Below are positions 49,836-64,000 of a DNA stretch of 64,000 nucleotides, piece by piece. Position 1 is the stretch's first letter. Each line of letters starts with the position of its first letter. The notes below the pieces were generated by a model, which made no database searches, was not told where the DNA came from, and worked only from the letters and a program-made list of their open reading frames with translations. This DNA comes from Rhizobiaceae bacterium (GTDB taxonomy: Bacteria; Pseudomonadota; Alphaproteobacteria; Rhizobiales; Rhizobiaceae), in assembly GCA_016742175.1 (NCBI GenBank), contig JACVCH010000007.1, positions 1 through 64,000 of the forward strand. The letters run 5' to 3'. Both the position numbers and the translations under genes were made by a program.

Positions 49836-51794
49836 TCAGCGCGGGCGGCGGGCGAGAAGCAGGATGAAATAGCTGCCGCCGATGATGGCGGCGACAGTGC
49901 CGGCCGGAAGCTGCGCAGGGTAGAGCACGGAACGGCCGAGCCAGTCCGAGACGGTCAGCAGCGACATGCCGATCAAGGCGGCGGCGAAGAGCTGGTGGGC
50001 TGCCCGCCGTGCGCCGAGAAGCGAGGCCAGATGCGGCGAGATGAGGCCGACGAAGGAGATCGGGCCCATGACGGAGGTGACGGCGGCCGTGACCGTGGCC
50101 GAAAACACCAGCATGCCGAGCCGGGCGGCGGGGACGGAAAGGCCGCGCGAGCCGGCCAGCGCGTCGCCGGCGATGATCAGCGTCAGCGGCCGGCGGGCGA
50201 TGAGGCCGAGGACGAGGAAGGTGACGGCGCCGAGCGCGAGAAGCATCGCCTGGTCGGCCTGCACGCGATAGGTCGAGCCCGACATCCAGCCGATGATGGC
50301 GAAGGCCTGCTCGCCGCCGCCGGCGATGGCGAACTGGACGATGGCGTCGAGGAGCGCGGCGAGCGAGATGCCGGCAAGCGCCATGATGCCGGGCGCATAA
50401 TCGGTGCGGCGGCCGAAGAGGATGAGCAGGCCGAGGACCGCGGCGCTGCCGAGAATGGCGATGCCGGGCCCCGATTCGTGGATCGAGCCGCCGGCGAGGA
50501 TGGCGCTGGCGACGAGGGCGAGCGTGGCGCCGGAAGTCATGCCCATGATGTCCGGGCTGGCGAGCGGGTTGCGGATGAGGCGCTGGAGGACGACGCCGGC
50601 GATGGCCATGGCGATGCCGGCGGCGGCGGAGGCGGCGATGCGCGGCCAGCGAAGGGCGAAGACGAGTTCGCTCGGCCATTCGACGCGCCAGCCTTCGCCG
50701 GTGACCGCGACGGCGAAGGAGGCGGCGAGGAGGCCGGCCGCGACGAGCGCGAGGAGGCAGAGCGCGGGAACCGACATGCGGTCGCGGCCCTTGGGCAGGA
50801 AGAAGCGGAGGTGATCGCGCGCCTTCATCTGCCGGGCGGCGAGCCAGATCAGCGCCGGCGCGCCGACGAGGGCGGCGGTGGCGCCGCTCGGGATCATGTC
50901 GGCGGTGAAGTTGGAGCCGTAGAGCGCGATCGCGTCGGTGCCGACCATCAATGCGGCGCCGAGCGCGATGCTGGTCGCGAGCCGGTCGAGCGTGGAGCGT
51001 GCACCGGCCATGCGCGCGATGTTGGGGGCGATGAGGCCGATGAAGCCGATGACGCCGACGATGGCGACGACGGTCGCGGTCAGCCAGAGCGCGACGAGGA
51101 GCGCCAGCCCGAGGACCTGCACGATCGGCACGCCCCGCGCCGAGGCGCCTTGCTCGCCGAGCCGCAGAAGGGTCAGCGGCCGGGCGAGGAGCAGCGCAAA
51201 GGGCAGCGCGGCGAGAAGGCGCGGCCAGAGCCAGGAGACGCCCTGCCAGTCGATCTGGGTGAGGTCGCCTGCGCCCCAGACGAAGAGGTGGCGGACGTAG
51301 AACTCGTTCATGATGATGAGTGCGACGGCGACGGCGGAGAGCAGGAGATTGAGCGCCATGCCGGCGAGCACGATCGGCAGGCCGCCGATGCCCTGCCGCC
51401 CGGCGATGGCGAGCACCAGCACCATGGTCGCCGATGCGCCGGCAAGCGCGAACCATTCGCCGTAGGCGGCGGCAAGGCCGGGCACGAAGACGGTCGCGGC
51501 ATAAAAGCCGACACGGGCGCCGGCCGAGACGCCGAGCGTCATCGGCGAGGCGAGCCGGTTCTGCGTCGCCTCCTGCATGATCGCGCCGGAAAGGCCGAGC
51601 GCCGCGCCGGCGAGAAGCGCCATGGCAAGGCGCGGCAGGACGGAATGGTAGAAGCGGACTTCCTCGAAGAGATCGGGATCGAGGCCGGTCGCCAGCGCCC
51701 ATTTCTGCGCGAGCGGCAGCGGGCTCGAAACGCCGAGATGGATGAGCGTGGCGGCGAGAAGCGCGATGAGGCAAAGGGCGATGCGCGTCGTCAT
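49836..51794 (-). CDS. fhuB: Fused iron-siderophore ABC permease FhuB
   Basis: Inner-membrane permease made of two tandem FecCD-type domains in one 652-residue chain with about 20 helices, the layout of FhuB. Each half has the marker pair: RLAMALLAGAALGLSGAIMQEATQNRLASPMTLGVSAGA and RIAASAAAGIAMAIAGVVLQRLIRNPLASPDIMGMTSGA. Its ATG overlaps the fhuD stop (ATGA). Last gene of the siderophore operon. Confidence 0.94.
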   Translation of the reverse strand: MTTRIALCLIALLAATLIHLGVSSPLPLAQKWALATGLDPDLFEEVRFYHSVLPRLAMALLAGAALGLSGAIMQEATQNRLASPMTLGVSAGARVGFYAATVFVPGLAAAYGEWFALAGASATMVLVLAIAGRQGIGGLPIVLAGMALNLLLSAVAVALIIMNEFYVRHLFVWGAGDLTQIDWQGVSWLWPRLLAALPFALLLARPLTLLRLGEQGASARGVPIVQVLGLALLVALWLTATVVAIVGVIGFIGLIAPNIARMAGARSTLDRLATSIALGAALMVGTDAIALYGSNFTADMIPSGATAALVGAPALIWLAARQMKARDHLRFFLPKGRDRMSVPALCLLALVAAGLLAASFAVAVTGEGWRVEWPSELVFALRWPRIAASAAAGIAMAIAGVVLQRLIRNPLASPDIMGMTSGATLALVASAILAGGSIHESGPGIAILGSAAVLGLLILFGRRTDYAPGIMALAGISLAALLDAIVQFAIAGGGEQAFAIIGWMSGSTYRVQADQAMLLALGAVTFLVLGLIARRPLTLIIAGDALAGSRGLSVPAARLGMLVFSATVTAAVTSVMGPISFVGLISPHLASLLGARRAAHQLFAAALIGMSLLTVSDWLGRSVLYPAQLPAGTVAAIIGGSYFILLLARRPR

Positions 51795-52702
51795 GGCTCG
51801 ATGGTCAAAAGCGCTTCGGTGAAGGCCTCCGCGAGATAGCCGATGGAGAACGCGCCGCCGAACGTCCAGCTCGGCTTGACGCGCGCGAAGCGGCCGGCGC
51901 GCACGAAGGGCATCGCGTTCCAGAGCGGCGAGGCGAAGAGAAGTTCGGCGTCGGGGAAGGGCTCGATGTTGAGGATGATGCCGTCCTCGAGCGTGCCGAG
52001 CTGTTCGACGCGCTTTTGCACGAAGCCCCATGTGGTCGCGGGTTGCGGGAAGGCGGGGTCGAGGCCGAGAGCGAGGAGAGCGGCTTCGGAGGTCGAATTG
52101 CCGCCATGGACGCGCACCCGCGCCTGGTCCATCAGGCTGATCGCGGTGACCTTGGGAAGGTCAGGCCCGAAATGGCGCTCGACCTTGCCGCGCAGCGCGG
52201 CGAGGTGCGCGTCGAGGCCGGCGAGGCGCTCGCGGGCCAGCTCCTCGCGGTTGAACAGGCGGGCGAGTTCCAGATAGCTGGTGCGTGTGGCCGCGGCATT
52301 GTCGTGGTCCAGGCTGAAGAGCGTGAAATGGACGACCGGCGCGATGCGTTCGAGAACGGGGGCGAGTTCACCTTGGTCGTCGGAGATGACGATGAGATCG
52401 GGCTTCAGTTCGGCGATGCGCTCGACATTTGGCTCGTTGCGGCGGCCGACATTCTCGACGCCGGGCTCGAGCGCGGGCTGGACGACCCAGAGCCCGTAGC
52501 CCTCGGGGTCGGCGACGGCGAGAAGCGGAACGTCGAGTTCGACGAGCTGTTCGACGACCGCCCAAGAAAGCGCGATCACGCGCTGCGGGATCGCGTCGAA
52601 GGTCTGCGCGCCGCGGCTGTCGGTGATGGTCGTCTGCGCGAAGGCGGGCGTCGCCACGGCAAGGAGGCCCGCGAGGACGGCGCGGCGGGAGATGCTTTGC
52701 AT
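51791..52702 (-). CDS. fhuD: Iron-siderophore substrate-binding protein FhuD
   Basis: Periplasmic class III binding protein of 303 residues. The N terminus SISRRAVLAGLLAVATPAFA has twin arginines and looks like a Tat signal. The family helix-backbone pattern is present: RVIALSWAVVEQLVELDVPLLAVADPEGYG, ERIAELKPDLIVISDD and the C-terminal SIGYLAEAFTEALL. It lies two bases after fhuC and overlaps fhuB, so it is part of the fhu operon. Hydroxamate specificity is inferred from the company of FhuF and FhuB. Confidence 0.9.
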   Translation of the reverse strand: MQSISRRAVLAGLLAVATPAFAQTTITDSRGAQTFDAIPQRVIALSWAVVEQLVELDVPLLAVADPEGYGLWVVQPALEPGVENVGRRNEPNVERIAELKPDLIVISDDQGELAPVLERIAPVVHFTLFSLDHDNAAATRTSYLELARLFNREELARERLAGLDAHLAALRGKVERHFGPDLPKVTAISLMDQARVRVHGGNSTSEAALLALGLDPAFPQPATTWGFVQKRVEQLGTLEDGIILNIEPFPDAELLFASPLWNAMPFVRAGRFARVKPSWTFGGAFSIGYLAEAFTEALLTIEP

Positions 52703-52704
52703 CG

Positions 52705-53472
52705 TCAGGCCACGATCGCGATCGGATGGGCGTCGTCGGGATGCGGCAGGAGCCGGATGTCGATGCCGTAGAGTTCGCTCAGGAGCCCGCCCGACATGAG
52801 TTCGGCCGGCGGGCCGTCGAAGGCGATGCGGCCATCCTTCAGTGCGATGACGCGGTCGGCAAAGCGCGCGGCGAGGTTGACGTCGTGGAGGACGACGACG
52901 ACGCCGCGCCCGGCCGAACGGTTCAGCCCGCGCAGGAGCGACATGACGCCGTATTGGTGGACGAGGTCGAGCGCGGAGGTGGGTTCGTCGAGGAGCAGCA
53001 GCGGCGATTGCTGCGCGATCAGCATCGCGATCCATGCCCGCTGGCGCTCGCCGCCGGAAAGCTGGTCGACCATGCGCGCGGCGAAGGAGGTCAAGTCGGT
53101 AGCCGAAAGCGCGTCCTCGACGGCCTGCCGGTCCTCGTCCTTCCAGATTCCGAGCGCGCCGCGCCAGGCATAGCGGCCGAGGCCGACCAGTTCGCGTACG
53201 TCGAGGCCGGGCACGTCGGCAAGCTGCTGCGGCAGGAAGGCGAGGCGGCGGGCGAGATCGCGCTGCGAGAGGCCGTGAAGATCGGCACCGTCCAGGATCA
53301 GCCGGCCCGAGGTCGGCTTCTGCTGGCGCGCCATCAGGCTCATCAACGTCGACTTGCCGGAGCCGTTGTGGCCGATGATCGCGGTGAAGGCGCTGCCGGA
53401 GATGGCAAGTTCGGGCACGGCGAGAACGGTGCGCGCGCCGTGGCGCATCTCGATGTCGAAGAGGTCAAGCAT
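52705..53472 (-). CDS. fhuC: Iron-siderophore ABC ATPase FhuC
   Basis: ATPase of 255 residues for the FhuBD importer. Walker A GHNGSGKST (34-42), Q-loop LAFLPQQL, signature LSGGERQRAWIAMLIAQ, Walker B LLLLDEPTSALDLVHQ and switch VVLHDVNLAARFADRVIAL, the last typical of iron-chelate ATPases. It overlaps the end of fhuF by eight bases. Confidence 0.94.
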   Translation of the reverse strand: MLDLFDIEMRHGARTVLAVPELAISGSAFTAIIGHNGSGKSTLMSLMARQQKPTSGRLILDGADLHGLSQRDLARRLAFLPQQLADVPGLDVRELVGLGRYAWRGALGIWKDEDRQAVEDALSATDLTSFAARMVDQLSGGERQRAWIAMLIAQQSPLLLLDEPTSALDLVHQYGVMSLLRGLNRSAGRGVVVVLHDVNLAARFADRVIALKDGRIAFDGPPAELMSGGLLSELYGIDIRLLPHPDDAHPIAIVA

Positions 53473-54220
53473 GGGCGCTCCAATAGGCCTGCATCCGCTC
53501 CATGCGGAGCGCGCGGGGCTGTTTCGGGCAGGATTGGCAAAGCGCGCCGGGCTCGCACAGATAGTGGAGGCAGCACTGCTTGCGGTCGAGGACGGGATGG
53601 AGCGCGCCGCTCGTCAGGCGCACATCGGCAAGCGCGCTCATGCCCGAAAGGCCGGCGGCGTCGAGCCAGCGGCCGGCATGGGCGCAGACGTCGAGGTGGG
53701 GCTCATGCGCGTGGAGGTGCACGAGCGTGCCGAGAATGCGGTCGGCCAGAAGCCGGTAGGCGATCTTCTCCTTGACCGGCGCGATCGCGCAGAGTTCGGC
53801 GTAGAGACGATCGGCGATCGCGCGGATGCGGGTCGCCGTCAGCTCGATCATCTCGGCAAGGTCGGTGCGCAGGCTCTGGCCGGCGGGCAGGCGGAAGCCG
53901 TAGACGCCGCCCTCAGTGACGCGTTGGCCCATGCGGTCGACGGGAAGCGCGAGGTTGTGGCCGTGGACGCCCATGATGCCGGCCATGGCGGGCTGCCAGA
54001 CCAGCATCGACCAGCTTCGCACCGCATGATAGGCGGCGCCGGCCGGCGCATGGCCGGCGGCGATCTCGCCATGGAGGCGGGCGATTGTGTTGCGGTCGTC
54101 GCCGGCGCCGAGCCAGTCCGAAGGTGTGGCGGAAAGCGCGGCGTCGATGCCCGGCATGGCCGTGCGGACCGCGTCGATGAACGCGGTCTCGGCTTGGCTC
54201 CTGTCGAGCGCGACGCCCAT
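53465..54220 (-). CDS. fhuF: Siderophore-iron reductase FhuF
   Basis: Cytoplasmic [2Fe-2S] protein that reduces ferric siderophores to free the iron. The 251-residue protein ends with the FhuF cysteine motif C-C-x10-C-x2-C (Cys216, Cys217, Cys228, Cys231; an extra Cys222 lies between). Upstream regions include MGVHGHNLALPVDRMG and ICG-like FRL segments of the family. Placed between the receptor gene (eight bases) and fhuC. The ATG gives a product of family length. Confidence 0.9.
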   Translation of the reverse strand: MGVALDRSQAETAFIDAVRTAMPGIDAALSATPSDWLGAGDDRNTIARLHGEIAAGHAPAGAAYHAVRSWSMLVWQPAMAGIMGVHGHNLALPVDRMGQRVTEGGVYGFRLPAGQSLRTDLAEMIELTATRIRAIADRLYAELCAIAPVKEKIAYRLLADRILGTLVHLHAHEPHLDVCAHAGRWLDAAGLSGMSALADVRLTSGALHPVLDRKQCCLHYLCEPGALCQSCPKQPRALRMERMQAYWSAHA

Positions 54221-54228
54221 GCCTGCCC

Positions 54229-56286
54229 CTAGAACTTCGAGGTGAGCTTGAGGGCGACGGTGCGGCGCTCGCCGTAGAAGCAGTCGCCGCGCGCAAGGCA
54301 GGTGGTGACGTGCTTCTTGTCGAACAGGTTGCGCGCGTTGAGCGTGACGTCCCAGGTTTCGGCCTCGTAGCCGATCATGGCGTCTGCGAGCACGTAGTCG
54401 GGCGTCTCGATCCTGTCGACGCCGTCGAAGCTGGTGCCGACATAGCGCACGCCCGCGCCGAGCTTGAAGCCCTCCCACTCGCCGCCGGGACGCCAGGTGC
54501 CCCACGCGCTCGCCTGATGCGTCGGGACGCTGGCGAGGCGGAAGCCGTCCGACTTCTGCGTGTCCAGATAGGAATAGCCGGCGAGAAGCTCGAACTCGGA
54601 GTTGATCACCGTCTGCGCTTCGAGTTCGAAGCCCCGGATCGTCACGTCGCCGAGCTGCGCCTGCCGGCCCGGATTGTTGGGATCGCCGACGAGACGGCCG
54701 TTCTCCTCGATATGGAAGACGGATGCGGTGAAGATCGAGGCGGAGCCGACCGGCTGGTACTTGATGCCGGCCTCGACCTGGTGGCCGCTGAGCGGGCGGA
54801 ACGCGTTGCCGGACGCATCCAAGCCGGCGGTCGGCAGGAAGGATTCCGAATAGGACACGTAGGGCGCAATGCCGTTGTCGAAGGCGTAGAGGAGGCCGAC
54901 ATCCTTCGACAGGACGTTGTCCGTCCGGCCGGCGCCGTTGCGGGCGATGTCGTAGCGCAGTCCGCCCGAGACGAACCAGTTGTCGTAGCGGACCTGGTCG
55001 CTCAAATAGAAGCCGGTCTGGCGCGTGTTGGTGACGGTGCGCGGCGAAAGGCCCGGCACGAAGGGCAGGTTGCCATAGACCGGCTCGTAGAGATCGATGG
55101 GCGATGCCGCGCCGAAATAGCTCGCATTGCCCAGATTGACATATTGCTGGTCGACGCCGAAGGCGACCTTGTGCTCCAGCGCGCCGGTGAAGGCGTTGGC
55201 GTTGAAGCGCACGTCGCCGGTGAAGGCCTCGACGTCGGCCGCCGAGACGTAGACGACGCGGTTGATGGTGCGCCCGTCCGGATTGATGGTCGGCGGGAAG
55301 GACGGGTACATCGAGCGGTAGTCGGCATTGCTATCCGAATAGCGCGCGCGGGCGCTCATCGACCAGACGTCGTTGAAGCGGTGGTCGAAGATCGCGGTGA
55401 CGGCCTTCTGCTCGGTGTCGTAGCGGTCGAAGCCGGGTTCGGAGAGGAAGACGCTGTCGTCGATCTGGCCGTTCGGCGCCGGGAAGATGGTGCCCTGCCA
55501 GGGCAGGAACTGCGTCGACGTGCCGGATTCATTGCGCTGCGCGTTGAAGAGGACGGTCAGGCTGGTGTCGTCGCTCGGCGCCCAGGTGAAGGACGGTGCG
55601 AAGAGGTAGGAATTGTCGTCGACATAGTCGACCTGCGTGTCGGAATCGCGGAACGCGCCGACGAAGCGGTAGAGGAACTCCCCGTTCGCATCGAGCGCGC
55701 CGGTCATGTCGACGCCGACCTGCTTGCGGTCGTGCGTGCCGTATTCGACGAAGGCCTCGCGGCTCGTCTCGGCCTCGGGCATCTTGCTGGTCAGGTTGAC
55801 GATGCCGCCGATGGAGCTCTGGCCGTAGAGCGTGGAGGCCGGGCCCTTGACGATGTCGACGCGCTCCAGCGCGTAAGGGTGCGGGCGCACATTGTTGTAG
55901 AAGCCGAAGATCTCCTGCAGCCCGTCGCGGTACTGGACCGGCGAGACGCCGCGCACATACGACCAGTCGCCGCGCGTGTCATAGCCGAAGGTCGCGCCGA
56001 AGACGCCGGGGGTGTACAACAGCGCGTCCTGGACGGACTGCATGCCCTGGTCGGCGATGCGCTGTTCGGTGATGACGTTGACCGAGCGCGGCGTCTCGAT
56101 GATCGGCGTGCCGGTCTTCGTCGCCGAGGACGAGTCCTGCGCGATCGTCTCGCCCTTCGGACCGCCGCTCTGCTGCGCGTCGCCGCCTTCGACGACGAGC
56201 GTTTCGAGAACCGTCGTGTCCTGCGCCTGTGCGCCCGTGCCCAATACCAATGCCGCGCCTGCGGCCGCGATCAAACGCGCCTTCAT
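54229..56286 (-). CDS. TonB-dependent siderophore receptor (FhuA/FoxA-like)
   Basis: Outer-membrane ferric siderophore receptor of 685 residues. A signal peptide (MKARLIAAAGAALVLGTGAQA) is followed by a TonB box-like DTTVLETLVVEGGD, the plug domain (RSVNVITEQRIADQGMQSVQDALLYTPGV, YQDGLQEIFGFYNNVRPHP-like region, PASTLYGQSSIGGIVNLTSKMP) and a 22-strand barrel ending in FYGERRTVALKLTSKF with the terminal phenylalanine. It leads the operon with fhuFCDB, so hydroxamate siderophores are the likely cargo. The ATG is preceded by GGGGGA. Confidence 0.93.
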   Translation of the reverse strand: MKARLIAAAGAALVLGTGAQAQDTTVLETLVVEGGDAQQSGGPKGETIAQDSSSATKTGTPIIETPRSVNVITEQRIADQGMQSVQDALLYTPGVFGATFGYDTRGDWSYVRGVSPVQYRDGLQEIFGFYNNVRPHPYALERVDIVKGPASTLYGQSSIGGIVNLTSKMPEAETSREAFVEYGTHDRKQVGVDMTGALDANGEFLYRFVGAFRDSDTQVDYVDDNSYLFAPSFTWAPSDDTSLTVLFNAQRNESGTSTQFLPWQGTIFPAPNGQIDDSVFLSEPGFDRYDTEQKAVTAIFDHRFNDVWSMSARARYSDSNADYRSMYPSFPPTINPDGRTINRVVYVSAADVEAFTGDVRFNANAFTGALEHKVAFGVDQQYVNLGNASYFGAASPIDLYEPVYGNLPFVPGLSPRTVTNTRQTGFYLSDQVRYDNWFVSGGLRYDIARNGAGRTDNVLSKDVGLLYAFDNGIAPYVSYSESFLPTAGLDASGNAFRPLSGHQVEAGIKYQPVGSASIFTASVFHIEENGRLVGDPNNPGRQAQLGDVTIRGFELEAQTVINSEFELLAGYSYLDTQKSDGFRLASVPTHQASAWGTWRPGGEWEGFKLGAGVRYVGTSFDGVDRIETPDYVLADAMIGYEAETWDVTLNARNLFDKKHVTTCLARGDCFYGERRTVALKLTSKF

Positions 56287-56381
56287 CCCGTCCCCCGGAA
56301 AAATACACTCGAGCAAAAAATTCGCCGCGTGCCTTGCCGGGTGGCTGGGTAGGACGATCAATCACGTCCAGCTATAATTGT

Positions 56382-56435: not shown

Positions 56436-58073
56436 TCAGAGATCGGCCCAGGCGGCGCGGACGTCGCCCACCGCGCGCATGGTCGCGCCGCCCGCCGCGA
56501 TATCGGCGAGGATGCCCTCGACCTTGGGCTGGATGAAGCCGTCGAGATCGTCGAAATGGAGCGGACGGGCGGCGTCGGGCGCGCCGCTCGCGGCCTGACG
56601 CGCCGCCATGTAGAGCGGCACCGTCGCCTCGGAGAGGATTTCGCGCGCGTCATAGCTGTCGGCGACGAGTTTCGCGCGAAGCTCGACCGCCTGGACGCCG
56701 ATCATCAGCGCGGCGGCGAGATAATGCTCCAGCACGTCGATGGTCTCGCGGGCGAGGTTGGCCGAGTTCATCGCCTGGCTGTTGACGTTCTGGTTGAACT
56801 GCTCGGCATGGGTCGGGAAGCGGTCGACGATCGACTGGCCGTAGAAGCTCATCAGCGGCATCATCGAATTGCCGCCGATCTGCAGCGACTTCAGGCCGAC
56901 ATTGATTCCGGCCTCCATGTTGCCGACGAGGGAGGGGTTGAGGCCGTAGGAGAATTCCGGCGTCATCAGGAGTGCGATCTGCGCGTCGATATGCTTGGCG
57001 ATGAGGCCGACATGGTAGCGCAGGCCGTCCATCGCGACGCCGGTATATTGGGCGAGGAAATTGCCGGTGTGGAAGATTTCGCCGGTGTCGGGGTCGATCA
57101 GCGGATTGTCGTTGGCGCAGTTCGCCTCGGTCTCGATCTGGCGTGCGGCAGTGGCGATGCCGTCGACGACGGGGCCGAGATATTGCGGCAGGCAGCGCAG
57201 CGAATAGCGGTCCTGGATGAGCTTTCCCATGCGGTGGCTGCGCCCGCCCGCCGCTTCCGAGCGGATGACCTTCGAGCCGGCGACGAGACGGCCCATCTGC
57301 TTTGCCACCCAGATCTGTCCGGGATGCGGCTTCATCGCGTGGATGAACGGATCGAAGCTCTGGTCGGTGGACAGCATGGCCTGCGCGTAGAGCGCGTGGA
57401 TGCCGAGCGCGAGCGAGGCGAGGTCGAGTGCGCGCGCCGTCGCGTTGGCGGCGACCCCGGTGCAGGCGCCGGTGCCGTTGTTGAGCGCGAGGCCCTCCTT
57501 CGGCTGGAGGGTCAGCGGCTCGAGGCCGATGCGGGAAAGCGCCGAATGCGCGTCGAGCGTCTCGCCGTCGAGATCGACGAGGAAGGCGGGATCGAGCCCG
57601 ATCACGGCGCCGCCGATATAGGACAGCGGAACGAGGTCGCCCGACGCGCCGATGGATCCGCGCTGGTGGACATGCGGATGCGCGCCGGCGTTGAGGAAGG
57701 CGAGGTAGCGCTCGATGATCTCGCGGCGCACGCCCGACGCGCCCTTCACGAAGGAATTGGCGCGCAGAAGCATCGCCGCGCGCACGTCTTCTGCGGGAAG
57801 GCGCGGGCCGGTCGTGCTCTTGTGCTGCCACACCGCGATGCGCTGGACGTCGGCGAGAAGGTCCGGCCCGACATACTGGTCGGCCATGCCGCCGAAGAGC
57901 GTCGTCACGCCGTAGATCTGCTCGCCGCGCTCGACCCCGCCGGCGATGACGGCGCGCGACTTCTCGATGCGGGCGAGGATCGCGGGATCGTCGGTCAGCG
58001 CCACTTTCGCGCCCTGCGCGACGGCGCGGATGTCCGTGAGCGTTAGATCCTGTCCGGTGATGATGATGGTCAT
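56436..58073 (-). CDS. MIO-type aromatic amino acid ammonia-lyase, unusual specificity
   Basis: Removes ammonia from an amino acid to give an unsaturated acid, using the MIO group formed from Ala143-Ser144-Gly145 in GSIGASGDLVPLSY. Of 545 residues, other active-site parts are Tyr54 (YGVTT), LALNNGTGA, QDRYSLRC and GNFLAQ, all conserved. Residues 83-84, which set the substrate, are Gln-His (VWQHKS), whereas known enzymes have Ser-His (histidine), Phe-Leu (phenylalanine) or His-Leu (tyrosine). The Glu of histidases (QED) is Asn here (NQNVNS). There are no hutU or hutI genes nearby. It lies about 40 bases after the TPP enzyme gene, on the same strand. Confidence 0.88.
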   Translation of the reverse strand: MTIIITGQDLTLTDIRAVAQGAKVALTDDPAILARIEKSRAVIAGGVERGEQIYGVTTLFGGMADQYVGPDLLADVQRIAVWQHKSTTGPRLPAEDVRAAMLLRANSFVKGASGVRREIIERYLAFLNAGAHPHVHQRGSIGASGDLVPLSYIGGAVIGLDPAFLVDLDGETLDAHSALSRIGLEPLTLQPKEGLALNNGTGACTGVAANATARALDLASLALGIHALYAQAMLSTDQSFDPFIHAMKPHPGQIWVAKQMGRLVAGSKVIRSEAAGGRSHRMGKLIQDRYSLRCLPQYLGPVVDGIATAARQIETEANCANDNPLIDPDTGEIFHTGNFLAQYTGVAMDGLRYHVGLIAKHIDAQIALLMTPEFSYGLNPSLVGNMEAGINVGLKSLQIGGNSMMPLMSFYGQSIVDRFPTHAEQFNQNVNSQAMNSANLARETIDVLEHYLAAALMIGVQAVELRAKLVADSYDAREILSEATVPLYMAARQAASGAPDAARPLHFDDLDGFIQPKVEGILADIAAGGATMRAVGDVRAAWADL

Positions 58074-58111
58074 TGCGGTTCCTCCTCCGGTTTGCGGCAG
58101 GATAGACGCGA

Positions 58112-59824
58112 TCAGTAGCGATCCGAAATCGCCACGCGCACCTCGATCATCGCCTGCCGCTTCTCCTCGCGGATGACCTTCAGCGCGCGCTGGAGCGCGG
58201 CGGGAAGGTCCGCGCCTTGCTCGACGCGCTCGACATGGGCGCGGTTGGCGGCGGCGAGCATCGTGTAGTCGGGCGCAGGTTCCAGCGAGGTCAGCGGCAT
58301 GCGGTTGGCCTTGGCGGCCGCACCCTGCGGATAGGCGTTGACGACGGAGCGGCGCACCGCGTTCCACATGCCGTTGTTCTTGACGATGGTCAAAAGCGGC
58401 AGGTCGAGCGCTTCGGCGATCTGGTGGCAGGCGGTCGGGTTGGCGAACATGTAGGAGCCGTCGCCGACGCAGGCGACGACGAGGCGGTCGCGGTCGGCGA
58501 GCTGCGCGCCGAGCGCGGCGGGAAGCGCCCAGCCGAGGCCGCCCGAATGCGGATTGCAGAAGACGCGGTTGGGGCCTTTGGCGTCGATGGCGGCGGGCAC
58601 GATGCCGAGTTCGGAAAAGACGACGCCCTCGTCGCCGAGAATGTCGGAAACGCATTTCGACAGCCATTCGGCGCCCATCGGCGACGCTTTGCCGGCCTCG
58701 ATGGCGTCCGCGCCGGCGCGCCGGCGCTGCGCGGAGCGCTCGGCGATCGCTTCGCGTCGAGCGGCGGTGTCGACCTGTCGGCCGGCGAGCGCCTCGTGCA
58801 ACGCCTCGATCCCGGCGGCGGGGTCGGAGGTGATGGCGAGGTCGGCCTGGTAGCCGCGGATCGGCATGCGCTCGAATTGCGGATCGGCGCCCATCTGGAC
58901 GATCTTCACGGCAGCATCGGGCCGGTGGACGGCCTCGATCCACGGCACGCCGCTGTCGACGACGAGGACGAAGTCGGCACCTTCGAGCGCGGCCTTCGGG
59001 TCGTTGCCGAGGAACATCGGGTCGGCGCTCGCCATGACGTTGCGGATCGAGAAGGGTTCGCACACGCCGACCGCGAAATCGGCGGCGAGGCGCGCGAGGG
59101 CCGCACCGACGCGGCCGTCCGTATCGCCGCGCTGGCAAAGGACGACCGGATGCTGAGCGGCCGCGAGCCAGCCGGCGGCCTCGGCGATGGCATCGGGATC
59201 GGGAAAGGCGCGGGTGGAGACGGCCTGCGCGGAGGTCGCGCGGCCGACGGTTTCGGGAACGCGCTCGGTGAGCGGTTCGCGCGGCAGGCTGACATAGACG
59301 GGGCCGCAGGGCTCGGACCGCGCCAGCACGGCGGCGCGCTGGGCGAGGATTTCGCCCTGTTCGGGATAGCGCATCTCGTAGTGGAACTTGACGCTGTCGG
59401 CGACGAGCGAGGACTGGTCGTACATCTCCTGCCCGTACTGGATCGGCGTCATGCGCGCGCCCTTGCGGCCGCGCTCGGTGATCGGCGTGCGGCCGGACAG
59501 GACCATAACCGGGATGTTGTCGCTCGCCGCGTTGATGACGCCCATGACCGAATTGGCAAGGCCGACATTGACGTGGACCATCGTCGCCTGCATGCGGCCG
59601 GTGACGAGGTAGTAGCCATGCGCCATGCCGACGCTCGCGGTCTCGTGCGGCACGGTGACGGGAACGGGGACGGATTGCGGGTCGAGCGTCGCGAAGGCTT
59701 CGATGATCGGCGGGAAGTCGGTGCCGGCATTGGCGAAGAGATATTCGATGCCGCTCGCCTTCAGCCCCAGAAGCAGGCTCTCGGCGCCCGTTTTCGCCTC
59801 GACAGCGCGTTCGTGACCGTCCAT
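58112..59824 (-). CDS. Thiamine-diphosphate-dependent enzyme, acetolactate synthase-like
   Basis: A 570-residue three-domain enzyme of the decarboxylase/acetolactate synthase superfamily; reaction unknown. The N-terminal Pyr domain has the catalytic glutamate at Glu61 in VPHETASVGMAHGY, the middle domain follows, and the PP domain has the ThDP/Mg motif GDGSYMFANPTACHQIAEAL to VKNN. PNRVFCNPHSGGLGWALPAALGAQL is the usual loop before it. It could decarboxylate a 2-oxo acid or join aldehydes. It is the first gene of the divergent lyase operon. I use the ATG after AGGGTGGAG; a GTG three codons upstream is possible. Confidence 0.88.
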   Translation of the reverse strand: MDGHERAVEAKTGAESLLLGLKASGIEYLFANAGTDFPPIIEAFATLDPQSVPVPVTVPHETASVGMAHGYYLVTGRMQATMVHVNVGLANSVMGVINAASDNIPVMVLSGRTPITERGRKGARMTPIQYGQEMYDQSSLVADSVKFHYEMRYPEQGEILAQRAAVLARSEPCGPVYVSLPREPLTERVPETVGRATSAQAVSTRAFPDPDAIAEAAGWLAAAQHPVVLCQRGDTDGRVGAALARLAADFAVGVCEPFSIRNVMASADPMFLGNDPKAALEGADFVLVVDSGVPWIEAVHRPDAAVKIVQMGADPQFERMPIRGYQADLAITSDPAAGIEALHEALAGRQVDTAARREAIAERSAQRRRAGADAIEAGKASPMGAEWLSKCVSDILGDEGVVFSELGIVPAAIDAKGPNRVFCNPHSGGLGWALPAALGAQLADRDRLVVACVGDGSYMFANPTACHQIAEALDLPLLTIVKNNGMWNAVRRSVVNAYPQGAAAKANRMPLTSLEPAPDYTMLAAANRAHVERVEQGADLPAALQRALKVIREEKRQAMIEVRVAISDRY

Positions 59825-59933
59825 CGTCTCCACCCTTTCGTCTGCTCCAGATTGCGCGGGGAAGGAGCGGCAACGACGAAACGCGTGATTCCGTCATTGC
59901 CGCAGCCTGTCTTGCCCCATGGTAAAAATGGCC

Positions 59934-59963
59934 TTGTCATCCGCGCAAACGCAAGTGCATAAT
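59934..59963 (+). promoter_or_regulatory. Promoter of the TAXI-TRAP operon
   Basis: TTGTCA, 18 bases, CATAAT: a reasonable sigma-70-type match. The predicted start of transcription falls at the left arm of the IclR-type palindrome that follows. Confidence 0.45.
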
Positions 59964-59966
59964 CGC

Positions 59967-59993
59967 ACAAAATCTCTCTTTATGGGATTTTGT
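59967..59993. promoter_or_regulatory. Palindromic operator 1, probably for the IclR regulator
   Basis: ACAAAATC and GATTTTGT, eleven bases apart, are exact reverse complements. The inner core AAAATCTC-N7-GGGATTTT matches the site downstream of iclR. It lies in the spacer between the divergent TPP-enzyme and TAXI genes, covering the expected transcription start of the TAXI operon. Confidence 0.6.
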
Positions 59994-60038
59994 ATCGTCT
60001 TGAGGTGGCGGTACGGAGGCACAAACCGGAGGAAACCG

Positions 60039-60995
60039 ATGAAATACGTTCTCGCCTCGGCCGTCATTGCGGCCGCTCTCGTCACCGGCGGCCAGGCCTC
60101 GGCGCAGGCCGTCGGCATCGCCACGTCGAACCCCGGTTCGATCTTCCACAATATCGGCACGGCCGTCGCCAACGCCGCCAACCAGGCCGGCATCAACGCG
60201 ACGATCCAGCCGGCGACGAGCCCGAACCAGTACATTCCCTTCGTCGCCTCGGGCGGCATCGAGTTCGGCGCCGCCAACCTTCAGGAAGTGAACTACGCGC
60301 TGGAAGGCAAGGCATGGTTCGAGGGCTCGGTCAATGCGGACCTGCGCATCGTCGGCCACGTCATGCCGCTGGTCGAGGCGATCTTCGTGCGCGCCGACAG
60401 CGACATCCGCTCGATCGAGGATCTGCGCGGCCAGCCGATGGTCGACGGCTACACGGCGCAGAACACCATCCTGCCGCAGCTCGACGCGATGTACGCGACG
60501 GCGGGCATGACCCGGGCCGACATGCAGCCGGTGCAGGTGCCGAGCGTGGTCGGCGGCGCCGACGCCTTCATCGCCGGCGACGCGGTCGGCTTCATCTTCG
60601 CTCATGGCGCCGGCAAGGTGCGTGAGGCGGATGCGGCCGTGGGCGGCCTGCGCGCGCTGCCGATTGAGGAGAACGAGGAGAACCTCGCGACCATCCGCGA
60701 ACATTGGCCGGTCGGCTTCTTCGCCACGATGGAGCCGGGCCCGAACGCTCCGGGCGTCGAGGAGACGTCGACCTATTTCGCCTATCCGCAGGTGATCTTC
60801 ACCCATGCCGGCGTGGACGAGGAGACGGTCTACCAGATGACCAAGGCGATCTACGAGAGCAAGGAAGCGATGGCGCAGACCTTCCCGCCCTTCAACGCTT
60901 TCGATCCGGCCGACATGGCGAGCGACACCGGCGCGTCGGAATTCCATCCGGGCGCGATCCGCTTCTACAAGGAAGTCGGCATCTGGAAGGAATGA
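60039..60995 (+). CDS. TAXI-family TRAP transporter solute-binding protein
   Basis: Periplasmic binding protein of 318 residues for a TRAP uptake system driven by ion gradients. The signal peptide MKYVLASAVIAAALVTGG to ASAQA is followed by the TAXI pattern: VGIATSNPGSIFHNIGTAVANAANQAG, IEFGAANLQEVNYALEG, DLRIVGHVMPLVEAIFVRADS and GFIFAHGAGKVREAD. Ligands known for this family include glutamate and other organic acids; the ligand here is unknown. GGAGG lies six bases before the ATG. Confidence 0.9.
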   Translation: MKYVLASAVIAAALVTGGQASAQAVGIATSNPGSIFHNIGTAVANAANQAGINATIQPATSPNQYIPFVASGGIEFGAANLQEVNYALEGKAWFEGSVNADLRIVGHVMPLVEAIFVRADSDIRSIEDLRGQPMVDGYTAQNTILPQLDAMYATAGMTRADMQPVQVPSVVGGADAFIAGDAVGFIFAHGAGKVREADAAVGGLRALPIEENEENLATIREHWPVGFFATMEPGPNAPGVEETSTYFAYPQVIFTHAGVDEETVYQMTKAIYESKEAMAQTFPPFNAFDPADMASDTGASEFHPGAIRFYKEVGIWKE

Positions 60996-61088
60996 CCGCC
61001 ATCGGCTCGGGCGTCGCATGAGCGGCGCCCGGCCACGAAATGCCCCGTTGCGGCGGGGCCGACCGATCCACCGACCAGAGTGTGCGTG

Positions 61089-63029
61089 ATGAATTCTGCA
61101 ATCGAGAGCCGTTCGCCCGGCGGCCTGCCCGAAGCCGTCTGGCGACCGCTGAGCGGCTTCCTCGCCGTCTGCCTGACGGGGCTCGCCATCGCCTGGGCGC
61201 TCGCCCTGCCCCGCGCCATGGGCATCGCCTTCTATCCGCAGCAATTCATGAGCGCGATCTTGGCGCTGGCGCTGCCGATCGCCTTCCTGATGCTGCCGGC
61301 GCGGCGCGACACCGAGCGGACGGTCGTGCCCTGGTATGACTGCATCGCGGCCGTGCTCTCCTTCGCCGCGCTCGCCTATGTGACCTGGAACTATTCGGCG
61401 ATCGTCAACCTGATCTTCTCCGGCCCGCCGCAGGCCTATGTGCCCGGCATCATCATCATCCTGCTGCTGCTCGAAGCCGTGCGCCGCGCCGCCGGCTGGG
61501 CGCTCGTCATCATCATCGCGGTCTTCCTGTTCTACGGGCTGTTCGGCGATCTCTTCCCCGGCCGCCTCGCCGGCCGTCCGCAGGACTGGGAGCGGCTCGC
61601 CGGCTACATGGCGCTCGATTCCAACGGCATTCTTGGCCTGCCGCTGTCGATCGCGGCGACCGTCGTCGTCACCTTCATCCTGTTCGGCAACCTCCTCGCC
61701 GCCACCGGCGGCTCGAAATTCTTCACCGACGCCGCGCTTCTGGGCATGGGCCGGTTCCGCGGCGGCTCGATGAAGATCGCGGTCGTCGCCTCGGCGCTGT
61801 TCGGCTCGATCTCGGGCTCGGCCGTCGCCAACGTGGTCGCCACCGGCATCGTCACCATCCCGATGATCAAGCGCGACGGCTATCCGGCGCACAAGGCCGG
61901 CGCCATCGAGGCGGTGGCTTCGACCGGCGGCCAGATGATGCCGCCCGTCATGGGCGCGGCGGCTTTCCTGATGGCCGAATTCCTGCAGATGTCCTATGCC
62001 GAGGTCGTCGTCGCGGCGATCGTTCCGTCGCTGCTCTACTATACGGCGCTGTTCATCCAGGCCGACCTCGACGCCGCCCGCCTCGGCATTTCGAGCGTCA
62101 AGGAGTCGGATATCCCCGACCGGAAGATCGTGCGCGGCGGCTGGCATTTCATTCTCGGCTTCGCCGTGCTGATCTACGGCCTCTTCGCGCTCAACTGGCA
62201 ACCGGAGCGCGCCGCGCTCGTCTCGTGCCTCGTCGTCATCGCGACGTCGCTCGTCTTCGGCTACCAGTCGAAGCGTCCGAGCCTGCGCGAATTGTGGGAG
62301 ACGATCCCGCTGACGGGCAAGAACGTCGTTGAGATCATCCTGATTTCGGCCGCGGCCGGCATCGTCATCGGCATTCTCAACGTCACCGGCCTGTCGTTCA
62401 ACCTGACCTACGCGCTGGTCCAACTCGGCGGCGGCAACAAGCTCGTGCTGCTCCTGCTTTCGGCGGTGATCTGCATCGTGCTGGGCATGGGCCTGCCGAC
62501 GCTGGGCGTCTACGTGCTGCTCGCAGCCCTCGTCGCGCCGGCGCTGATCGAGGTCGGCATCAACCCGATTGCGGCGCATCTGTTCATCCTCTATCTCGGC
62601 ATGATGTCGATGATCACGCCGCCGATCGCCATCGCCGCCTTCGCCGCCGCCGGCATCGCCCGCGCGTCCGCGATGGCGACCGGGTTCGCGTCGATGAAGT
62701 TCGGCTGGGCCGCCTTCATCATCCCGTTCCTGTTCGTCTATTCGCCGACGCTGATCATGATCGGCGAGCCGGTCGACATCGCCATCGCCATCGTCACCGC
62801 GACGCTCGGCGTCTGGCTGATATCGGCGGCGCTCTCCGGCTTCTTCATGACCAGGCTGCCGCCCGTCATGCGGGCCGCTTTCGCCGTGTTCGGCCTCCTG
62901 GCGCTGATCCCGGCCGGCGCCTTCCCGGGCGCCGAATACACCGACATCGTCGGCGTGATCGGCGGCGTCTTCGTGATGATCGTCGACTGGCGGCGCTCGC
63001 GTGTTCTCAGCCCACAGGCGGTGTCTTGA
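61089..63029 (+). CDS. Fused TRAP transporter permease (small plus large subunit)
   Basis: A 646-residue inner-membrane protein in which the small four-helix subunit (about residues 20-170) is fused to the large DctM-type subunit, as is usual for TAXI-TRAP systems. Conserved DctM features are FGSISGSAVANVVATGIVTIPMIKRDGYPAHKAGAIEAVASTGGQMMPPVMGAAAF and GMGLPTLGVYVLLAALVAPAL in separate helices. It works with the TAXI binding protein before it. The stop overlaps the TTG start of iclR (TTGA). Start at ATG; GTG codons one and three triplets upstream are possible. Confidence 0.9.
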   Translation: MNSAIESRSPGGLPEAVWRPLSGFLAVCLTGLAIAWALALPRAMGIAFYPQQFMSAILALALPIAFLMLPARRDTERTVVPWYDCIAAVLSFAALAYVTWNYSAIVNLIFSGPPQAYVPGIIIILLLLEAVRRAAGWALVIIIAVFLFYGLFGDLFPGRLAGRPQDWERLAGYMALDSNGILGLPLSIAATVVVTFILFGNLLAATGGSKFFTDAALLGMGRFRGGSMKIAVVASALFGSISGSAVANVVATGIVTIPMIKRDGYPAHKAGAIEAVASTGGQMMPPVMGAAAFLMAEFLQMSYAEVVVAAIVPSLLYYTALFIQADLDAARLGISSVKESDIPDRKIVRGGWHFILGFAVLIYGLFALNWQPERAALVSCLVVIATSLVFGYQSKRPSLRELWETIPLTGKNVVEIILISAAAGIVIGILNVTGLSFNLTYALVQLGGGNKLVLLLLSAVICIVLGMGLPTLGVYVLLAALVAPALIEVGINPIAAHLFILYLGMMSMITPPIAIAAFAAAGIARASAMATGFASMKFGWAAFIIPFLFVYSPTLIMIGEPVDIAIAIVTATLGVWLISAALSGFFMTRLPPVMRAAFAVFGLLALIPAGAFPGAEYTDIVGVIGGVFVMIVDWRRSRVLSPQAVS

Positions 63030-63814
63030 CGAAACCGGCAGGCAACAGTCTCGAAAAGGTCCTGGCGGTCCTCGAAGTCTTCAGCGAGGACCGGCTGGAA
63101 TGGACGCCGGAGGAACTGATGGAGGAGCTGGGCTACAGCCGGCCCACCCTCTACCGGTATCTCAAGACGCTGAAGGAGGCGGGGCTTCTGACCTCCATGC
63201 CGAACACCGGCTTCACACTCGGCCCGAAAGTGGTCGAGATGGACTATCTGATGCGAAAGTCCGACCGGCTGATCATCAACGGCTCGGCGCATCTTAGGAA
63301 TCTCACATCGAAATACAGTTGTACCGCGCTTCTGGTGCGCTGGTACGGCAACCGGCTGCTCTGCGTCGATTCCGACACGTCGACGAAGAACCCGCTTTCT
63401 TCCTATCCGCGCGGCCGGCCGATGCCGCTGGGGCGCGGGGCGATCGCGCGTTCGATCATGGCCTTCCTGCCGCGCCGGCACTTGGTGCCGCTCGTCGAGC
63501 GGACCATGGACGATTTGCGCGCCGTCGGCCTCGGCAACAGCGTCGAGGACGTGATGGAGCAGTTGAAGAAGGTGCGCAAGGCCGGCGTCAGCGTCGCCTA
63601 TGGCGAGGTGACGCCGGGCGTCGTCGGCATCGCCGCGCCGGTGTTTGATGCGGGGCGCAGCCCGGTCGCGAGCGTCTGCGTGACCATCGCCGGCAATCTC
63701 GTCGACGGCGCGGCGATCGAGCGCATCGCGGCCGATGTGAAGGCGACGGCGCGGATCGTGTCGGAATCGCTGTTGCGCGGCCGGGTTGAAAGTGACGAGA
63801 CCAAATCTCATTGA
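63026..63814 (+). CDS. IclR-family transcriptional regulator
   Basis: A 262-residue regulator with an N-terminal winged helix-turn-helix (NSLEKVLAVLEVFSEDRLEW, then WTPEELMEELGYSRPTLYRYL) and a C-terminal effector domain (from about residue 85, with VGLGNSVEDV and VVGIAAPVFDAGRSPVASVCV). IclR proteins bind palindromes of about this size and respond to pathway metabolites. It starts at TTG overlapping the upstream stop, with no good ATG. The second operator overlaps its own stop codon, so it probably controls the downstream gene as well as the divergent promoter. Confidence 0.9.
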   Translation: MTKPAGNSLEKVLAVLEVFSEDRLEWTPEELMEELGYSRPTLYRYLKTLKEAGLLTSMPNTGFTLGPKVVEMDYLMRKSDRLIINGSAHLRNLTSKYSCTALLVRWYGNRLLCVDSDTSTKNPLSSYPRGRPMPLGRGAIARSIMAFLPRRHLVPLVERTMDDLRAVGLGNSVEDVMEQLKKVRKAGVSVAYGEVTPGVVGIAAPVFDAGRSPVASVCVTIAGNLVDGAAIERIAADVKATARIVSESLLRGRVESDETKSH

Positions 63815-63824
63815 ATGAGATTTT
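63802..63824. promoter_or_regulatory. Palindromic operator 2 between iclR and the amidohydrolase gene
   Basis: CAAATCTC-ATTGAAT-GAGATTTT: nine-base arms AAATCTCAT/ATGAGATTT around TGA. Same 8-7-8 design as operator 1. It ends just before a TTGACT sequence that could serve as the -35 of the next gene. Confidence 0.6.
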
Positions 63825-63881
63825 TTGTTGACTTGATGGGCGCCGCGAAGGCATCCTCCGGCCATTGCCGAGGGAGGTCCC

Positions 63882-64000
63882 ATGAAGAAGATCGACATTT
63901 TCAACCACATCTGGCCGAAGCCGTTTTTCGATGCGCTGATCGCGCATATCGGCGAGATGACCGACATCACCATGCGCTCCGGCGCCGTGCCGATGATGAC
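63882..64000 (+). CDS. Amidohydrolase-family protein, 3' end missing
   Basis: The first 39 residues (MKKIDIFNHIWPKPFFDALI, then AHIGEMTDITMRSGAVPMM) begin like the amidohydrolase-2 family, which includes ACMSD-type decarboxylases, with the strand-1 metal motif read as F-N-H rather than H-x-H. The loss of the first histidine resembles members with altered or absent metal binding. AGGGAGG precedes the ATG by four bases. The family and reaction stay uncertain until the rest is seen. Confidence 0.65.
   Translation, partial: MKKIDIFNHIWPKPFFDALIAHIGEMTDITMRSGAVPMM

Follow-up and report, generated by a model that had tools for sequence, protein, structure and literature searches.

The first 64,000 nucleotides (hereafter the window) of contig JACVCH010000007.1 (C14, 225 kb), from the 4.3-Mb draft genome of a Rhizobiaceae bacterium (GCA_016742175.1), end in a group of genes that together with their continuation past 64 kb form, in the reading we favor, a catabolic module of seven genes under IclR control, with an aromatic acid of the aryl 2-oxo or 2-hydroxy type as its substrate. 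We give this reading a probability of about one half, and less for each of its individual steps. Its observed part consists of the gene order, the family membership of the encoded proteins, a palindrome present at two positions and the conservation of the set without the ammonia-lyase gene that adjoins it in the window. A preliminary description, made from the window alone, had counted this lyase as a member of the module and as its deaminating first step, whereas the comparisons below suggest that it is a neighbor.

All six window genes are open frames with Pfam matches above curated cut-offs, and the two palindromes share one 21-bp pattern, which bears out what had been described of the window itself. 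On the minus strand, next to the lyase gene, lies the gene for a thiamine-diphosphate (TPP) enzyme, a presumed 2-oxo acid decarboxylase (58112..59833, start codon uncertain), which belongs to NF006203 (PRK08327). Divergent from it, on the plus strand, are the genes for a TAXI-family TRAP solute-binding protein (60039..60995; TIGR02122, 136.5 bits against a cut-off of 84.35), a fused TRAP permease (61080..63029, start codon uncertain; TIGR02123, 588 bits against 320.65), an IclR-family regulator (63026..63814; PF09339 and PF01614 above cut-off) and a protein of the Amidohydrolase_2 family (ACMSD/LigW superfamily; PF04909, 136 bits), the last of which is cut by the window edge (63882..64000, on to contig position 64901). 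The contig completes the interrupted operon: the remainder of the amidohydrolase gene is followed by genes for an aldehyde dehydrogenase (ALDH; contig 64898-66337; Aldedh, 478.5) and an FAD monooxygenase (FMO; contig 66368-67954; FAD_binding_3, 236.3). The operon thus runs on past the window edge.

The module is conserved well beyond the genus of the window. In a survey of 297 genomes of the family (own included), a threshold of E ≤ 1e-80 gave the amidohydrolase in 30, and the 26 regions that came from other genera were compared. The TPP enzyme, TAXI, TRAP, IclR and amidohydrolase genes are colinear in 10 of the 26 (L186-L189, L191-L194, L205, and L208), and six of those ten loci (L186, L187, L188, L192, L193, and L205) contain all seven genes. 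Among the others, the TPP side lies past the contig end in three (L195, L196, and L206), the TPP, IclR and amidohydrolase genes occur without TAXI-TRAP in three (L202-L204), and a more distant TPP enzyme (47-49%) is found in five (L190 and L198-L201), four of which (L190, L199, L200, and L201) have a homolog of alpha-hydroxy acid oxidase. L207 combines a 36% TAXI and a 48% TRAP homolog with gentisate dioxygenase and FAH genes, L197 is a short contig, and in L209-L211 an amidohydrolase of 50-55% stands in other contexts. No lyase match at E ≤ 1e-12 was found in any of the 26 loci. The same seven genes in the same order are also carried by a Neorhizobium SOG26 plasmid; Sagittula stellata has a rearranged set, in which an alpha-hydroxy acid oxidase accompanies the TPP, ALDH and amidohydrolase homologs, and a Pacificitalea plasmid has a looser version, with homologs of 31-51% and an extra class II aldolase. 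More widely, homologs of the amidohydrolase occur in 11 of 385 genomes of the class (E ≤ 1e-50) and homologs of the TPP enzyme in 11 of 398 genomes of the phylum (E ≤ 1e-100), own genome included in both counts. Genes in the relatives were called with a home-made codon-usage caller, which missed the amidohydrolase cluster of L190 (recovered by tblastn) and the lyases of L046, L048, and L049; contig ends cut several loci, L202 has only part of the TPP gene, and in L204 the IclR match is split in two. Together, these comparisons define a conserved module, with the TPP enzyme gene transcribed away from TAXI-TRAP-IclR-amidohydrolase(-ALDH-FMO). The co-occurrence in relatives that had been proposed beforehand as a check therefore holds for the TPP, TRAP, IclR and amidohydrolase genes, which stand together, and fails for the lyase, which is absent from the group outside the genus.

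Conservation also supports the view that importer and catabolic genes form one module under a single IclR regulator, linked by two like palindromes. The first presumed IclR operator, AATCTCTCTTTATGGGATT, lies in the divergent promoter region (59971..59989), and the second, AATCTCATTGAATGAGATT, lies upstream of the amidohydrolase gene, where it overlaps the 3' end of iclR (63804..63822); both are called from pattern match and conservation. The segments 59970-59990 and 63803-63823 fit the 21-bp pattern with one and zero mismatches, respectively. When up to three mismatches are allowed, the window holds four matches against 1.18 expected, but 4 of 100 shuffles also reached four, so that within the window alone the palindromes are suggestive only. 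It is their conservation across module loci that makes them convincing. In 22 module loci, the motif common to both, AATCTCA-N5-TGAGATT, was matched (at 11 of 14 positions or better) 30 times within the two intergenic regions, which total 8,577 bp, and 14 times in the remaining 416,674 bp. After shuffling (200 runs, preserving base composition only), the intergenic regions held 0.23 matches on average and 2 at most. At least one site is present in the intergenic regions of 18 of the 22 loci, while L153, L195, L196, and L206 have none in these regions as defined. The magnitude of this enrichment calls for caution, because several of the 22 loci are congeneric, four being from the genus of the window, and because the consensus was drawn from the same sites that were counted. 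Given the position of the motif, IclR is likely to be the protein that reads it. The best NCBIfam match of the regulator is the PcaR/PobR subfamily model TIGR02431, although its score is far below the cut-off (64.8 vs. 284.75).

As for the chemistry, the TPP enzyme scores 641.3 bits against NF006203 (cut-off 456), a family whose name states no activity. The HE and HxxxGxxN segments, and with them one His besides that of HE, are invariant in 22 of 22 aligned TPP homologs, in an alignment that included no benzoylformate decarboxylase. In benzoylformate decarboxylase, the catalytic His is that of the His70 column. A search of 21 genomes with the benzoylformate decarboxylase model found no match above cut-off, and the matches listed in a fragment search aimed at this enzyme were other TPP enzymes only. 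The module resembles the mdl-type mandelate/benzoylformate pathway in its combination of TPP enzyme and ALDH, whose homologs in Sagittula, L190, and L199-L201 have an alpha-hydroxy acid oxidase nearby. It differs from it in the family of its TPP enzyme, in its additional amidohydrolase, FMO, TAXI-TRAP and IclR genes, and in the absence of an alpha-hydroxy acid oxidase from the window's cluster.

The TAXI protein adds a point against the lyase as a deaminating first step. The characterized TAXI proteins described in PMC11574862 bind glutamate, with a Tyr and a Gln (Y45 and Q93 in VcGluP) as key determinants. The window protein is a TAXI solute-binding protein like VcGluP and TtGluBP, but in the alignment to TtGluBP (1us4) the key Tyr is replaced by F, in a column assigned from a V-Y motif, and the Gln by N, and YPE reads MPL. 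Its pocket columns are therefore unlike those of the characterized glutamate-binding members.

The best solved relatives of the amidohydrolase, after the uncharacterized 3ij6, are 5-carboxyvanillate, gamma-resorcylate and ACMS decarboxylases (2e-32). One N-terminal His, two more His and an Asp are kept in 31 of 31 homologs and align with the solved decarboxylases; which residues form the metal site of Amidohydrolase_2 proteins is our assumption. The likeness to LigW, ACMSD and gamma-resorcylate decarboxylase in an aligned His, His and Asp is joined by one of context, MTHFR- and LigM-type genes following the amidohydrolase in L189. By contrast, the relationship is distant at this E value, and the window's amidohydrolase family has F in place of the first His of the ACMSD HxH.

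Protein-family evidence, the differing TAXI pocket and the aromatic neighbors of the module are the reasons why we favor an aryl 2-oxo or 2-hydroxy substrate. The acid imported by TAXI-TRAP would be of the aryl 2-oxo type or else a 2-hydroxy acid that is oxidized first, an option suggested by the alpha-hydroxy acid oxidase genes of Sagittula and the four family loci. The TPP enzyme would decarboxylate the aryl 2-oxo acid to an aldehyde, which ALDH would turn into an aryl carboxylate. The metal-dependent amidohydrolase, from the superfamily of ACMSD and 5-carboxyvanillate decarboxylase, could then take off a ring carboxylate, and FMO could hydroxylate the ring for cleavage of the gentisate or protocatechuate type, depending on the host; the order of ring decarboxylation and hydroxylation is a guess. 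If this is correct, a TAXI protein, a TPP family and an amidohydrolase, all three orphans, would share one testable substrate through a conserved, palindrome-linked module. No named pathway for such a module, and no description of the cluster, was found in the open-licence papers searched by title and start of abstract, in line with the preliminary description.

The aromatic neighbors are of several kinds. A gentisate 1,2-dioxygenase above its curated cut-off adjoins the module in L202 and L203, and L207 has one close to its amidohydrolase gene; a vanillate/3-O-methylgallate O-demethylase (LigM-type, above cut-off) is encoded two genes past the amidohydrolase in L189, where MTHFR-like and LigM-type genes occupy the place of ALDH and FMO (L189:6781-9121). 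On plasmid pOM-1 of Nitratireductor sp. OM-1 (L157), a 53% homolog of the TPP enzyme stands beside oxalomesaconate-pathway and pobA genes, its annotated neighbors including a DctP-type TRAP transporter, 4-oxalomesaconate tautomerase, CHA aldolase and an amidohydrolase. The window genome has four matches to PF00775 (intradiol dioxygenase) above cut-off, two of them adjacent on contig C8.

Several observations weigh against the proposed route. The aromatic links stem from few genera, L202 and L203 being congeneric. We searched with TIGR02272 in 27 of the 30 amidohydrolase-bearing genomes (three with proteins of 51-55% were left out) and in 27 others; gentisate dioxygenase was mildly commoner in the former, at 8 of 27 vs. 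3 of 27 above cut-off, and had no match in the window genome or in the three module-bearing sister genomes (0 of 4), and we have rejected gentisate as a general end point on these counts. The TPP enzyme falls well under the benzoylformate decarboxylase model (NF005485, 133.3 vs. a cut-off of 493), and the window's own cluster has no alpha-hydroxy acid oxidase. ALDH and FMO orthologs are missing from several loci, and the two genes are therefore not a strict core. Close homologs of single module genes stand alone on other plasmids, which weakens strict coupling. A 65% TPP homolog occurs without the module in Agrobacterium cucumeris, as do FMO homologs on a Comamonadaceae plasmid (69%) and in Roseinatronobacter (59%). 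Finally, among the loci listed, class-wide relatives of the amidohydrolase of 40-58% are found in other, partly aromatic contexts.

Some of the same evidence is open to a second interpretation, in which a ring-cleavage product is the substrate of the amidohydrolase, here a hydratase or lactonase comparable to 4-oxalomesaconate hydratase, while the TPP enzyme serves a later step, on an aliphatic 2-oxo acid. Such hydratases are indeed among the solved relatives of the amidohydrolase (1.2e-8), some homologs lie near ring-cleavage genes, and the Nitratireductor TPP homolog lies beside oxalomesaconate-pathway genes. Decarboxylases score far better (2e-32), however, and the cleavage neighbors vary by genus while the amidohydrolase persists, which makes this interpretation appreciably less probable than the decarboxylating route.

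The lyase gene (56436..58073, minus strand) encodes an MIO-type aromatic amino acid ammonia-lyase of 545 residues (PF00221, 459.7 bits). The protein has the ASG triad (GSIGASGDLV) and an active-site Tyr segment (IYGVTTLFGG), and its best solved relatives are 2nyn, 3czo and 5ltm, together with the phenylalanine ammonia-lyase (PAL) of Nostoc punctiforme; we take 2nyn and 5ltm to be AvPAL. It shares 51-56% identity with cyanobacterial homologs, as well as the MIO triad and an FNQN segment, but has Q-H at selectivity positions where 2nyn has F-L. Residues matching these positions are reported to influence substrate choice (PMC9002059); their mapping onto the window lyase is our own. The score against the PAL model TIGR01226 is 368.2 (cut-off 519.15), over a model of 680 positions. 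The protein is predicted from these features to be a PAL/TAL-type aryl-alanine ammonia-lyase. A hut-type histidine pathway was rejected, the histidine ammonia-lyase (hutH) model giving 333 against a cut-off of 539.15.

Among 297 genomes of the order (own included), the lyase matches at E ≤ 1e-60, its own aside, reach 39% identity at most. A scan of GTDB species genomes yielded 140 lyase relatives, the best 80 of which were kept; 21 of the 80 are at least 60% identical, and all 21 have Q-H or H-H. This clade (L035-L055) is mostly alphaproteobacterial, with a member in Geodermatophilus, and a 55% relative occurs in Microbacterium; the Microbacterium elymi lyase (L082:10001-11611) shows no ASG triad where the alignment would put it, possibly owing to a frameshift. 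Genomic contexts vary. TPP or TAXI matches lie around the lyase only in three sister genomes among the 21 relatives, the surrounding DNA being short for some. Unlike in cyanobacterial PAL, a divergent Lrp/AsnC gene (one cluster, family assigned by eye) lies beside 6 of the 21, namely two sisters and four distant loci, and a class I aminotransferase-like gene (by eye) comes after the lyase in L051, L052, and L053.

The three sister genomes, Aliihoeflea sp. 2WW, Aliihoeflea sp. 40Bstr573 and Mesorhizobium sp. YIM 152430, all have both module and lyase, while a fourth member of the genus (G1001) lacks both, with a best lyase match of 36% identity and no amidohydrolase match at E ≤ 1e-80. Among the loci examined, the lyase stands beside the module in this genus only. 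The Lrp gene is retained at the TPP-lyase junction in L035 (2WW) and L037, lying between the two genes in 40Bstr573, whereas L036 has the junction of the window. In 2WW, about 6.6 kb more separate TPP and Lrp genes (L035:2833-9325), and this stretch, with a DctPQM TRAP transporter, SDR, FAD enzyme and IclR (by eye), resembles a catabolic unit inserted there. In the window and YIM 152430, both the Lrp gene and the extra stretch are gone, the junction sequence is the same, and in the window the lyase begins 38 nt past the TPP gene (58074..58111, minus strand). No close copy of Lrp was found elsewhere in either genome of this pair (best 40% in the window genome and 42% in G1004). Judged from these sequences, a deletion removed the divergent Lrp gene and brought the lyase to within 38 nt of the TPP gene, and the lyase likely became an operon partner in this way in the window's lineage. 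The window's lyase, TPP and TAXI proteins are closest to those of 2WW, which has kept Lrp, yet the junction matches YIM 152430, a conflict that recombination would explain.

These findings bear on the pathway first proposed, in which the lyase would deaminate an aromatic amino acid after its import and the TPP enzyme and amidohydrolase would handle the product, or, in a weaker form, in which the lyase was recruited in this lineage only, as an aryl-alanine extension. The lyase is next to or near the module in all four module-bearing genus members, and in the window and YIM 152430 it is probably cotranscribed with the TPP gene, since the spacing is close and a ribosome-binding-like stretch upstream is kept. 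On the other hand, 0 of the 26 loci outside the genus carry it while the module persists, which makes it separable, and the divergent Lrp gene intervenes in two of the four genus members. Moreover, a lyase match at E ≤ 1e-100 was found in 7 of the 27 amidohydrolase-bearing genomes and in none of the other 20 (some drafts are incomplete); four of the seven are in the genus, two have full copies unlinked to the module (75% on another contig, and 73% about 95 kb away) and one has a partial match on another contig. A cinnamate-type product is, besides, no 2-oxo acid substrate for a TPP decarboxylase. We therefore consider this pathway unlikely, and the lyase looks like a recently acquired neighbor rather than a part of the module. 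A composite scenario is also improbable: an undescribed aromatic-acid pathway, with an orphan TAXI-TRAP system supplying an aryl 2-oxo acid to an uncharacterized NF006203 decarboxylase coupled to a LigW-like one, would in this lineage have captured a PAL-like lyase with an unusual Q-H pocket through Lrp loss, bringing it under IclR control. More generally, an apparent pathway in one genome can arise where a recent deletion joins two unrelated units.

A TauE/SafE-like permease gene recurs in L186, L188, L189, L191, L193, and L202-L206. A sulfonate pathway, with a TPP enzyme akin to sulfoacetaldehyde acetyltransferase or sulfopyruvate decarboxylase and sulfite leaving through this permease, is very unlikely: one TauE-family cluster (Pfam on the L202 copy) does occur in 10 of 33 clustered loci, beside TPP/ALDH in 9 of the 10, but the TPP enzyme is well under the Xsc model (100.9 vs. 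676.4), the window's cluster showed no TauE gene, and neighbors elsewhere include O-demethylase and gentisate dioxygenase.

On the contig, FMO is followed on the opposite strand by HyuA-like and DUF917 (S-Me-THD) genes (L003:16021-19722), the DUF917 protein scoring under the thiohydantoin desulfurase cut-offs, and beyond this pair by a LuxR-type regulator-like gene (by eye). At the other end, the lyase is adjoined by TonB-receptor-like and iron-type ABC genes (by eye; window 49836-56361), which are kept in the three sister genomes.

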